From assembly GCF_000315365.1 (NCBI RefSeq), contig NZ_CAOS01000012.1:1-64000 (forward strand): a stretch of 64,000 nucleotides of DNA, read 5' to 3'. This DNA comes from Desulforamulus hydrothermalis Lam5 = DSM 18033 (GTDB taxonomy: Bacteria > Bacillota > Desulfotomaculia > Desulfotomaculales > Desulfotomaculaceae). Below are positions 41,174 through 45,853 of this stretch, one piece after another (position 1 is the first letter of the stretch; every line of letters starts with the position of its first letter). The position numbers and the translations under genes were made by a program. The notes under the pieces were generated by a model. The model was not told the DNA's origin, ran no database searches, and worked only from the letters and a program-made list of their open reading frames with translations.

Positions 41174-41929
41174 GTGTACAGGCCTCATACAGGTTCCCCA
41201 CGCAAGAAGAACCACTTGCTGCAAAGTGTTTTTTTTATTTTACTGGTTTCAGTTTCAATTTATGTTTTATTGCAATCACCTTTTTTTGAGATTAAATATA
41301 TTACGGTGAACGGCAATCGCCAGTTAACCGAGGAAGAAATTATTAAGCTGTCCGGGCTGCATCTCAATGCCAATATATTTAAAGTGAACCTGGCCGAGGC
41401 GGCAAAAAGGTTAAGCCTGGTTCCTATGATTAAAAGCTCGCAGTTAAAGCGATCCTTACCCAACAAGATTACCATAACAGTTGTGGAGAGAACGGCTGTG
41501 GCACTGCTGCCGGTACAAAACGGCTTTATTAAAGTGGATGCTGATGGGGTATACTTGCAAAAGGGTCAGATTGCCTCAGCTTTACCCATCATTACCGGCC
41601 TGCAGGTTAGAGTGCCACAACCTGGGCAACCGGTGTCGGCAGAGAACCTGCCGGTGGCACTGTCAATCTTATCCCAATTACCACGTTCTTTAGCTGTTAA
41701 ACTATCAGAAATTAATATCGGCAAAGACGGTCAAATTAATTTATATACCATTGACGGGGTTCAGGGCAAACTGGGATTGCCTAGGGATGTTGCCTACAAA
41801 GGCACTGTTTTCCAACAGGTGTTGGACAGCCTGCGGCAAACCGGCAACCGGATTGAATATGTTGATATTTCCAACCCCAGGGTGCCTGTGGTTAAATATT
41901 TGAAACAGCAGCCGGAGGGGCAACCATGA
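41174..41929 (+). CDS. divIB: Cell division protein FtsQ/DivIB
   Basis: This 251-residue bitopic protein has a short basic cytoplasmic part, one membrane helix (about 18-36), a POTRA domain (about 38-108, FEIKYITVNGNRQLTEEEII) and an FtsQ/DivIB domain. It links FtsL/DivIC to the wall synthases at the septum. The GTG at 41174 follows TAAGGAGTGGGACT. A weak promoter (TTGGAC, 19 bp, TATAAT at 41125-41130) may drive the operon that runs from here to ftsA. Its end overlaps the next gene by 4 bp. Confidence 0.93.
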   Translation: MYRPHTGSPRKKNHLLQSVFFILLVSVSIYVLLQSPFFEIKYITVNGNRQLTEEEIIKLSGLHLNANIFKVNLAEAAKRLSLVPMIKSSQLKRSLPNKITITVVERTAVALLPVQNGFIKVDADGVYLQKGQIASALPIITGLQVRVPQPGQPVSAENLPVALSILSQLPRSLAVKLSEINIGKDGQINLYTIDGVQGKLGLPRDVAYKGTVFQQVLDSLRQTGNRIEYVDISNPRVPVVKYLKQQPEGQP

Positions 41930-42627
41930 AAATGGAAAAATACCAGTGGGGCATTGTACTGGTGGGCATAGTTTTAGGGTTAATGCTGTCGGTTCAATAC
42001 CGTTCTTACAAAGATATCAACGAAACGCCGCCCATTGCCAGAGTACAAGCCCTGTCCAACGAAATTAATCAGAAAAAAGAGGAACGCAACCGGCTGCAGC
42101 AGCGGGTTAACGAACTGCGGGAAAAACTTGACAAAAAAGCATCGGTATCAGATATTAACCGCAGAGAATTGGAAATTTACCGGATTATTGCCGGCACCAA
42201 GGCAGTAGTGGGGCCGGGTGTGGAAGTGACCTTAAACGACAGCAATGTAGCGCTGCCTCCGGGACAAGATCCCAACCTGTTTGTGCTGCACGATGAAGAT
42301 GTTCTCCGGGTTATCAATGAGCTAAAAGCCGCCGGAGCGGAGGCCATAGCTTTAAACGGGGTGCGTTTAATTGCTACCAGTGAGATACGCTGCATTGGAC
42401 CCACCATTCTTACCAATAAAAACAAAAGACTGCCTGCACCGTTTACCATTACCGCTATTGGTAACCCGGATACCCTGGAAAATTCTTTGTTTATGAAGGG
42501 CGGCGTAGTGGAGCAACTGAAAATTTGGGGCATCCAGGTGCAGGTGCGGAAAAAAACCGGCATAGAAATTGCTGAGTATACCGGACCTACAACCTTTGAG
42601 TATGCCCGACCGGCAGTGGAAGAATAA
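41926..42627 (+). CDS. ylxW: DUF881 family protein (YlxW-like)
   Basis: This 233-residue protein has an N-terminal membrane segment (about 6-24), a coiled coil (about 40-80) and a DUF881 domain (about 85-230, with GPGVEVTLNDS, DEDVLRVINELKAAGAEAIALNG and ITAIGNPDTLENSL). DUF881 proteins sit beside division genes in Gram-positives, but their role is not settled. The start overlaps the divIB stop in ATGA, so translation is coupled. A paralogue follows directly. Confidence 0.9.
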   Translation: MKMEKYQWGIVLVGIVLGLMLSVQYRSYKDINETPPIARVQALSNEINQKKEERNRLQQRVNELREKLDKKASVSDINRRELEIYRIIAGTKAVVGPGVEVTLNDSNVALPPGQDPNLFVLHDEDVLRVINELKAAGAEAIALNGVRLIATSEIRCIGPTILTNKNKRLPAPFTITAIGNPDTLENSLFMKGGVVEQLKIWGIQVQVRKKTGIEIAEYTGPTTFEYARPAVEE

Positions 42628-42647
42628 GGCGGGTAAGGCGGGATAGT

Positions 42648-43355
42648 ATGAATAAAATACTCTATGTATCAATTGTGCTGGTATCAGTAGTGCTTGGCAT
42701 GATGGTGGCTTTTCAATTTCGCACCACCGGCAGAATAGATGCCGGTGTCCCTATCGACAGGGTACAGCTTTTAACCACCGAATTAAAACAACTCGAAAAG
42801 GAATATAATACCCTGCTGATGGAGGCCAACGATCTGGAAAATAAATTAGCCCAAGCGGCCAAGGGCCGACCGGAAGCCTCCCAGGCGGTACATAACGAAT
42901 TGCAAAAAGTACGCCAGCTGGCCGGAATGACAAAACTGACAGGTCCGGGTGTGGAAGTAACCCTGGAACCAGTCAAAAAGGAAGACCCGCAGGGAGGAGC
43001 TAATCTTTTCACCGTCAGGGATGAGGATTTGCTCAGGGTGGTAAACGAACTGCGAGCTGCCGGTGCGGAGGGCCTGTCTGTTAATGATGAGAGAATCATC
43101 TCCACCAGTGAGATCCGTTTGGCAGGTTCTTTTATTGACGTTAACCTGACCAGAATTTCTCCCCCCTATCAGGTGCGAGCTATTGGGTCGCCGGATCAAC
43201 TGGAAAGCGCCCTATTGATTAAAGGCGGTCTGGTTGATACAATGCGGGACTGGGGGGTTGCCGTTACCGTAACCAAAAAGCAATTATTAACCTTGCCGGC
43301 CTACAACCACCCTATTAACATTGAATATGCCAGGCCGTTAAAGGAGGAAAAATAA
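42648..43355 (+). CDS. ylxX: DUF881 family protein (YlxX-like)
   Basis: This is a 235-residue paralogue of the preceding gene, with the same plan: membrane helix (about 4-20), coiled coil (35-75), DUF881 domain with GPGVEVTLEPV, DEDLLRVVNELRAAGAEGLSVND and YQVRAIGSPDQLESAL. The pair probably arose by tandem duplication long ago and may form a heteromer outside the membrane. It lies 2 bp before the sbp-like gene. Confidence 0.9.
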   Translation: MNKILYVSIVLVSVVLGMMVAFQFRTTGRIDAGVPIDRVQLLTTELKQLEKEYNTLLMEANDLENKLAQAAKGRPEASQAVHNELQKVRQLAGMTKLTGPGVEVTLEPVKKEDPQGGANLFTVRDEDLLRVVNELRAAGAEGLSVNDERIISTSEIRLAGSFIDVNLTRISPPYQVRAIGSPDQLESALLIKGGLVDTMRDWGVAVTVTKKQLLTLPAYNHPINIEYARPLKEEK

Positions 43356-43357
43356 TT

Positions 43358-43699
43358 ATGCTCGTGGGTGTTTTGCTGGCGCTGCTGGGATTGAGCATAG
43401 GAGCCATCATAGGGCTGAATGTTCCCATGGTACTACCCCAGGTATATGCTCAGTATCTGGGGTTGGGTGTGTTGGCCGCTCTGGATTCGGTTTTCGGCGG
43501 GATTCGTGCCGCTATGGAAAACCATTATGACAACCGTATTTTTGTAACCGGATTCTTTAGCAATATTTTATTGGCAGCCGGTTTAGCTTACATTGGCACT
43601 AAATTGGGCGTGCCGCTCAGTACAGCGGCGGTGGTGGCCTTTGGTGTCCGTTTATTCCAAAATCTCGCCATTATTCGGCGGCATTTATTAAAAAAATAA
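43358..43699 (+). CDS. sbp: Small basic protein Sbp (DUF1290)
   Basis: This 113-residue membrane protein has about three helices and the DUF1290 pattern LGLSIGAIIGLNVP, YLGLGVLAALDSVFGGIRA and FSNILLAAGLAYIG. In B. subtilis sbp sits in the same place between ylxX and ftsA. Its function is unknown. The ATG follows AAGGAGGAAAAATAATT, which overlaps the end of the previous gene. Confidence 0.9.
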   Translation: MLVGVLLALLGLSIGAIIGLNVPMVLPQVYAQYLGLGVLAALDSVFGGIRAAMENHYDNRIFVTGFFSNILLAAGLAYIGTKLGVPLSTAAVVAFGVRLFQNLAIIRRHLLKK

Positions 43700-43787
43700 A
43701 GCATTTTTGGCTGTTACATAAAAGGGAATTTCTATTCTATGTTGAATTTTACATTTTAAGTAAACAGTTGCCTGGGAGGTGCCTGGC

Positions 43788-44762
43788 TTGGCCAGGAAAC
43801 ATATAATTGGTGGACTGGATATTGGTACCACCAAAGTGGTATCAGTAATCGCTGAAGCCGGCCTGCACGGTCACCCTGTGATCAAGGGGTGGGGAGAGTG
43901 TGCCGCCCTGGGGATCCGTAAGGGCGTGGTTATTGACAAAACCTCATTAGGCAAATCCATTGCTCATGCTGTGGGTATGGCACAAGCCATGGCCGGCCTG
44001 AGTATTAAGGAATTTTATTGTTCGCTGCCGTATGCCAGTCAACCGGCGGGAACTTGTGAAATCACGGATGTTCAATTGTATGAAGCTATAGCCATGGCAG
44101 GAGTGACAATTCGCCAAGCATTTTCCTCAGTTATTGCTTCCGCCGAAGCAATTTTAAATCATACGCATAAGCACATTGGCACGGTGTTAATAGATCTGGG
44201 GGGGGCACTGACCGGTTTGGCTGTTTATAACCAAGGAGAGCCGGTTTTAACCCGCATGCTGCCTGTCGGCAGTGAACATATCACCAGTGATTTGGCACTG
44301 TGTTTGCGAACCTCGCTCAGCGAAGGGGAACGCATTAAGCGGTCCCTTGGTTTGCTCAGACCGGATTCTTCCACGACGCTGACAATCAGCGGTGTCGGAG
44401 GGCGGGCAAACAGGACGGTGCCGGCTTGTACAGCCAGTGATATTATAAAATCAAGAAGCCAGGAAATTTTTGAACTGGTTTATCAGGCATTAAGCCAACA
44501 TGTTAGGCTTGCCTCGTTAACGGGGGGGGTTATTTTAACTGGAGGTGGGTCTTTATTAAAGGGAATAGTGGATTTGGCCGCTTGCCAGATGAATTGCCCG
44601 GTGGCAGTGGGTCATCCTGTCAAATTGGCTATGTCTCAGGAGGAGTGGGGCAGCCCCGTATATGCTTCAGTCTTAGGCATGGTGCTCTACGGCGCCAAAG
44701 GAAGCACCCGCCGCACAGGAAACCAAACCGGATGGCGTGAAGTAATAAGCAGGTTTATATAA
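43788..44762 (+). CDS. ftsA: FtsA-like division protein, short form lacking most of subdomain 1C
   Basis: FtsA is an actin-fold protein that tethers FtsZ to the membrane. This one has 324 residues, far under the usual ~400-420. Phosphate loop 1 (GGLDIGTTK), phosphate loop 2 in altered form ([14 protein letters not shown]) and the adenosine loop ([11 protein letters not shown]) are kept, as is a C-terminal amphipathic end ([10 protein letters not shown]) suited to membrane binding. Between [12 protein letters not shown] and the helix before loop 2 only about 35 residues remain where FtsA normally has the ~80-residue subdomain 1C. No frameshift explains the gap. The TTG at 43788 follows GGGAGGTGCCTGGC. 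It directly precedes ftsZ. Confidence 0.85.
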
Positions 44763-44800: not shown

Positions 44801-45853
44801 ATGCTTGATTTTGAATTAGATCTGGATAATTTTGCGAACATTAAAGTAATCGGTGTTGGGGGCGGCGGGAATAATGCGGTCAACCGTATGATCAGCGCCG
44901 GGTTAAAAGGTGTTGAGTTTGTCGCGGTTAACACAGATGCTCAATCATTGTTCTTGTCCCAGAGCAACCACAAAATACAGATAGGTACTAAACTGACGAA
45001 AGGTTTAGGTGCCGGCGCCAACCCGGAAATCGGCTGTAAGGCGGCAGAAGAAAGTCGGGACGAAATAATGCAGGCTCTTAAGGGAGCTGATATGGTTTTT
45101 GTTACCGCCGGTATGGGCGGTGGCACCGGTACCGGAGCAGCTCCGGTGGTGGCGGAAATTGCCAAAGAACTGGGTGCCTTGACGGTTGGCGTTGTTACCA
45201 AACCCTTTACGTTTGAAGGCAGAAAAAGGTTAACCCAGGCGGAACAAGGGATTGAAAACTTAAAAAGCAAAGTGGATACCTTAATTACCATTCCCAATGA
45301 CCGGCTGTTGCAAGTTATTGATAAACATACCTCCATTGTGGAAGCTTTTCGCATAGCCGATGATGTATTGCGTCAGGGTGTGCAGGGCATTTCCGACCTA
45401 ATTGCCGTACCCGGCTTGATTAACCTGGATTTTGCCGATGTCAAGACCATTATGAAGGATACCGGCTCGGCACTCATGGGTATTGGCAGCTCCACGGGAG
45501 AAAACCGTGCTACTGAAGCGGCCCGCATGGCTATTTCCAGCCCCCTGCTGGAAACTTCCATTGAGGGGGCGCGAGGTGTGCTGTTAAACATTACCGGTGG
45601 TTCCTCCCTGGGCTTGTTTGAGGTTAACGAAGCGGCAGAAATTATTGCCCAGGCTGCTGATCCGGAAGCAAATATTATTTTTGGTGCCGTCATAGACGAA
45701 AGAATGAACGAAGAAGTAAGGGTGACGGTGATTGCCACCGGGTTTGACCATCATGTGCCCGCAAGAAAAGAAAAGAAAAAGCCCGACATGGAAATTAAAC
45801 CCTTTGCCGGGCAGGACGACCTGGACATTCCTGCTTTCCTGCGCCGACGCTAA
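44801..45853 (+). CDS. ftsZ: Cell division protein FtsZ
   Basis: FtsZ is the tubulin-like GTPase that forms the division ring. The 350-residue chain has the tubulin signature GGGTGTG (107-113), [10 protein letters not shown] near the N-terminus, the T7 synergy loop around [11 protein letters not shown], and the C-terminal peptide [12 protein letters not shown] that binds FtsA, SepF and other partners. The linker before it is short (about 15 residues). The ATG follows CGGAGGAGGATAATC. A terminator comes right after. Confidence 0.98.

Follow-up and report, generated by a model that had tools for sequence, protein, structure and literature searches.

A naturally occurring FtsA without the 1C subdomain in the genus Desulforamulus

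The 1C (SHS2) subdomain distinguishes FtsA from MreB, and it is thought to pair FtsA filaments and to relay the division signal. Models of divisome activation place it at their centre, as the part that binds FtsN and pairs FtsA protofilaments. Structural studies assigned the longitudinal contact of FtsA filaments to IIA and IIB, and traced the lateral pairing of antiparallel double filaments to IC with almost no other subdomain involved; in E. coli, FtsN docks in the cleft between IA and IC (Nierhaus et al., PMC7613929). An E. coli FtsA variant blocked for the lateral contact, FtsA M96E R153D, suffices as the only FtsA in the cell if FtsL* is present (PMC11323482), and in a suppressor-carrying strain of B. 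subtilis FtsZ and SepF are by themselves enough for an active Z-ring to form (PMC11790237). Our search of the open-access literature found no report of a natural FtsA without 1C. Here, we describe such a protein in Desulforamulus. It shares with canonical FtsA (TIGR01174/PF14450; E. coli, V. maritimus, S. aureus and T. maritima) the gene position, the ATP loops, the 1A, 2A and 2B fold, the putative FtsZ-binding residues and a predicted amphipathic tail, but it lacks the 1C domain (SHS2_FTSA, PF02491) that the canonical proteins have.

The gene lies on the forward strand at positions 43,788–44,762 of the window, the whole stretch of 64,000 nucleotides of D. hydrothermalis DNA that was analysed. 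It encodes 324 amino acids from a TTG start codon at 43,788 to a stop codon at 44,760–44,762, and is directly 5′ of ftsZ (44,801–45,853, forward strand), whose product has a conserved C-terminal peptide of 12 residues. Upstream is sbp, a small basic membrane protein gene (43,358–43,699, forward strand), and the order DUF881-DUF881-sbp-ftsA-ftsZ is the usual dcw order, with the three upstream genes being what we take to be DUF881, DUF881 and sbp. The tandem pair of DUF881-type genes (41,926–43,355) keeps its position before sbp across the class. A Shine-Dalgarno sequence, GGGAGG, precedes the TTG start (together 43,773–43,790, forward strand), and an AGGAGG-type Shine-Dalgarno with a TTG start is kept in all nine members of the genus. 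An in-frame GTG at 43,779 is a less likely start, because it is overlapped by the Shine-Dalgarno sequence, whose spacing suits the TTG. The start and end given by the first-pass annotation are correct; its reference to Peptococcaceae can be narrowed to Desulforamulus (Desulfotomaculum group), the genus to which named loci (D. putei, D. aquiferis) point.

We asked how the protein is classified. Read as 327 amino acids, it passes the FtsA equivalog model TIGR01174 (210.1 bits; cut-off 175.85), and its gene holds the dcw position immediately before ftsZ. It fails the curated MreB models (PRK13927, 30 bits against a cut-off of 293; mreB, 27.6 against 365.75); like ordinary FtsA, it passes the general cut-off of Pfam MreB_Mbl. 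It is also the only FtsA of its genome: a second, full-length FtsA was sought there, and the remaining matches were two MreB proteins, a EutJ-like protein of 289 residues and an FtsA-like protein of 640 amino acids. Since the 1C (SHS2) subdomain is absent, we class the protein as a variant derived within the FtsA lineage and lacking 1C, rather than as canonical FtsA. The 640-residue protein is an FtsA-like ATPase (L005; G000:C3:378974-380047) that carries ThiS-like repeats at its C terminus and did not match SHS2. Many genomes of the class, including some without ftsA, encode similar FtsA-like proteins of 600–800 amino acids.

To quantify the loss, we counted residues between two fixed anchors, one where the 1A strand ends and one where the following 1A helix begins. 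The window FtsA has 15 residues between the anchors (44,028–44,072, forward strand), as opposed to 85–92 in ordinary FtsA. The length is 14–15 residues in all nine Desulforamulus genomes. In the sister family, f3, 1C is full (88 amino acids in five of five), and FtsA proteins outside the affected lineages have 85–92 residues, apart from one f13 genome with 82. The Pfam domain SHS2_FTSA was detected in the f3 and E. coli proteins and not in the window FtsA. We conclude that the whole 1C subdomain has been excised from FtsA across the genus. The first-pass annotation had recognised that most of 1C is missing, which understates the loss, and had counted about 35 residues in its place, of which only 15 qualify, the rest belonging to the following 1A helix. 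A deletion peculiar to this one genome beside full-length relatives, the case that would have undone the first-pass reading, is excluded at the genus level. Beyond the class, the distribution of the 1C-less form is known from samples: among the matches listed for a sample of the phylum, none from outside the genus runs without a break across the site of 1C, and the best 77 FtsA proteins of other organisms in a collection of species genomes are 391–433 amino acids long.

As first annotated, the protein has the two phosphate loops and the adenosine loop and, at its C terminus, a short amphipathic segment, and the sequence indicates that the ATP-site residues of the actin fold (phosphate 1, phosphate 2, adenosine) are kept. 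Phosphate loop 1 is LDIGTTKVV (residues 10–18, with D11, G13, T14 and T15; 43,815–43,841), phosphate loop 2 is DLGGAL (residues 136–141; 44,193–44,210) and the adenosine loop region is GVILTGGGS (residues 247–255; 44,526–44,552), all on the forward strand. Phosphate loop 2 had been described as altered (DLGGALT). It does differ, but in a minor way: the near-invariant D136, the invariant G138 and the common G139 are retained, and A140 and L141 occupy variable positions, the latter being Thr in most members of the genus. Across 112 FtsA sequences seven columns are invariant, and the window FtsA keeps all seven, among them R223 and E226, the counterparts of R300 and E303 in the alignment with E. 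coli FtsA. We take these, from structures of FtsA with FtsZ, to be residues that bind the FtsZ tail, a role that is putative here; they lie in the IIB helix segment SRSQEIF (residues 222–228; 44,451–44,471, forward strand), the presumed FtsZ-tail binding surface. The presumed membrane anchor is the short C-terminal segment of 11 residues (44,727–44,759, forward strand), for which the tail has a hydrophobic moment of 0.68 (shuffle P = 0.023). The shuffle P value of the tail is below 0.05 in seven of the nine members of the genus, and the tail is weakly amphipathic in the other two.

An AlphaFold2 model built with 112 homologues (pLDDT 91.1, pTM 0.88) superseded an earlier run with nine sequences (pLDDT 64.6). 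Confidence in the core dips only at the 1C junction (pLDDT 67) and is lower before the tail and in it (52–55). The best matches among solved structures are without exception FtsA (Z 32–37; 2.0–2.4 Å over about 300 residues), among them X. poinarii FtsA (Z 37.0; 2.2 Å over 306 residues) and the T. maritima complex of FtsA with an FtsZ peptide (Z 33.3). PilM follows (Z 27), and then MreB, which likewise has an actin fold without 1C but differs in having 1B, in not being encoded beside ftsZ and in its lower structural score (Z ~25, versus 37 for FtsA). Thus, the fold is predicted to be intact apart from the missing 1C, with the reservation that the model is of a monomer, was guided by homologues of full length and is silent on filaments. 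The structure prediction and alignment proposed at first annotation returned an FtsA fold minus 1C and a loss that is genus-wide.

What could such a protein do? Because IC makes only the lateral contact and the FtsN dock, a longitudinal filament and a membrane tether could both be retained while the two functions of 1C are lost. We therefore consider it likely that the sole FtsA of Desulforamulus is an ATP-dependent membrane tether for FtsZ that can still form single protofilaments, with neither 1C-paired filaments nor a 1C-docked partner. Subdomain 2B would recognise the C-terminal peptide of FtsZ, attachment to the membrane would be through the amphipathic tail, and contacts between 2A and 2B would build single protofilaments along FtsZ. 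Antiparallel double filaments through 1C, and docking of a partner in the 1A–1C cleft as for E. coli FtsN, would be impossible in any known way. With pairing and docking gone, the Z-ring would have to be linked to the synthesis of septal wall through the remaining surfaces of FtsA or through SepF, of which there are two copies. That the protein binds FtsZ and the membrane, that it assembles into single filaments and that SepF takes a share of the work are all inferred. The suggestion of a minimal FtsZ anchor fits the retained parts; the accompanying suggestion of a different mode of polymerisation is unnecessary, since the longitudinal IIA–IIB route could remain. An experimental parallel is FtsA M96E R153D, with which the Desulforamulus protein shares the predicted loss of lateral pairing through 1C; the former, however, was made by point mutation in the laboratory, retains 1C, still recruits FtsN and needs FtsL* if it is to be the only FtsA (PMC11323482). 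A more radical proposal, possible but in our view doubtful, combines a novel contact (for example, MreB-like lateral pairing on the vacated face, or a strictly single filament that follows FtsZ) with signalling to wall synthesis that is free of 1C. If that were true, the 1C activation switch would be a lineage-specific addition and not a core function of FtsA.

We next considered whether the protein is simply decaying, with 1C-less FtsA a degenerate, near-functionless intermediate before gene loss and SepF carrying out the essential anchoring. The class lends this some colour. Its 113 genomes show four states of ftsA: full, with a shrunken 1C, without 1C (Desulforamulus) and absent. The 1C region is reduced to 50–80 amino acids in 16 f8 genomes and to 59 in G009 (L184-L193, L195-L200 and L180), proteins that, like the Desulforamulus FtsA, have no recognisable SHS2 but that retain those residues and are under looser selection. 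At the ftsZ locus, ftsA is absent from 34 of 97 scored genomes, a count that incomplete genomes could inflate, although near-complete, single-contig genomes such as G029 also lack the gene. In these genomes (loci L145-L152, L154-L176, L178, L179 and L182) an sbp-sized ORF directly precedes ftsZ. A quick FtsZ+Sbp tree, with many weak branches, implies at least nine changes between presence and absence; on the same tree, the genomes with the 1C-less form fall into one clade beside f3, with its full 1C, and 1C would have been excised once, on the stem of Desulforamulus. Within most of the families in the class, conservation of 1C is below that of the remainder of FtsA, whereas a sample of other phyla showed the opposite.

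Selection argues against decay. In unsaturated pairs (NG86), omega is 0.12–0.22 for the 1C-less FtsA, compared with 0.19–0.30 for full-length FtsA of the class, 0.23–0.38 for f8 FtsA, where 1C is shrinking, and 0.011–0.019 for FtsZ. FtsA is thus held about 10 times more loosely than FtsZ, a point in favour of decay, but the 1C-less form is under purifying selection and, since its omega is no looser than that of full-length FtsA, it is functional rather than a pseudogene. Moreover, an open, ATP-site-complete ftsA persists in nine of nine members of the genus despite deep divergence (46–71% identity among the 1C-less proteins). We therefore regard the decay scenario as improbable. Still less probable is a new lateral contact made by the vacated 1C face, with a double filament, MreB-like or of another kind, as the result. 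MreB has no 1C and yet its protofilaments pair in antiparallel fashion (PMC7613929), and its fold comes directly behind those of FtsA and PilM in the structure comparison, but the junction residues that replace 1C are poorly conserved (mean identity 0.40). An assembly or sequencing error, or a split gene with 1C encoded separately, is as good as ruled out by the presence of the form in nine genomes, several of them complete and four on a single contig, and by the lack of any SHS2 match in all nine.

Firm purifying selection on a sole FtsA that has no 1C sets the tether function apart from the 1C switch. Desulforamulus, a spore-forming, sulfate-reducing genus in which every sequenced member uses this form, has thus carried out nature's own deletion experiment, and its FtsA is a natural separation-of-function protein for reconstitution. 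A class in which 1C shrinks and ftsA is repeatedly lost, and SepF is always kept, is also a useful setting in which to ask what FtsA adds beside SepF.

SepF, an alternative membrane anchor for FtsZ whose fold is unrelated to that of FtsA, occurs alongside FtsA in Desulforamulus. We found it in all 60 relatives, in two copies in each of the nine members of the genus and as a single copy in the sampled families without ftsA. A second SepF as specific compensation for the loss of 1C was considered and rejected, because f3, with its full 1C, carries a second SepF too. EzrA was considered as a missing partner; no relative had a match above the cut-off, so there is no contrast to draw. The second SepF gene stands alone in the genome (L244:4544-5065 and L246:3628-4140), is common to Desulforamulus and f3, and in two Desulforamulus species adjoins a probable tRNA-thiolation gene and upp. 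One f18 genome has a second FtsZ-like gene (G026:C46:21273-22193), 58% identical to the window FtsZ.
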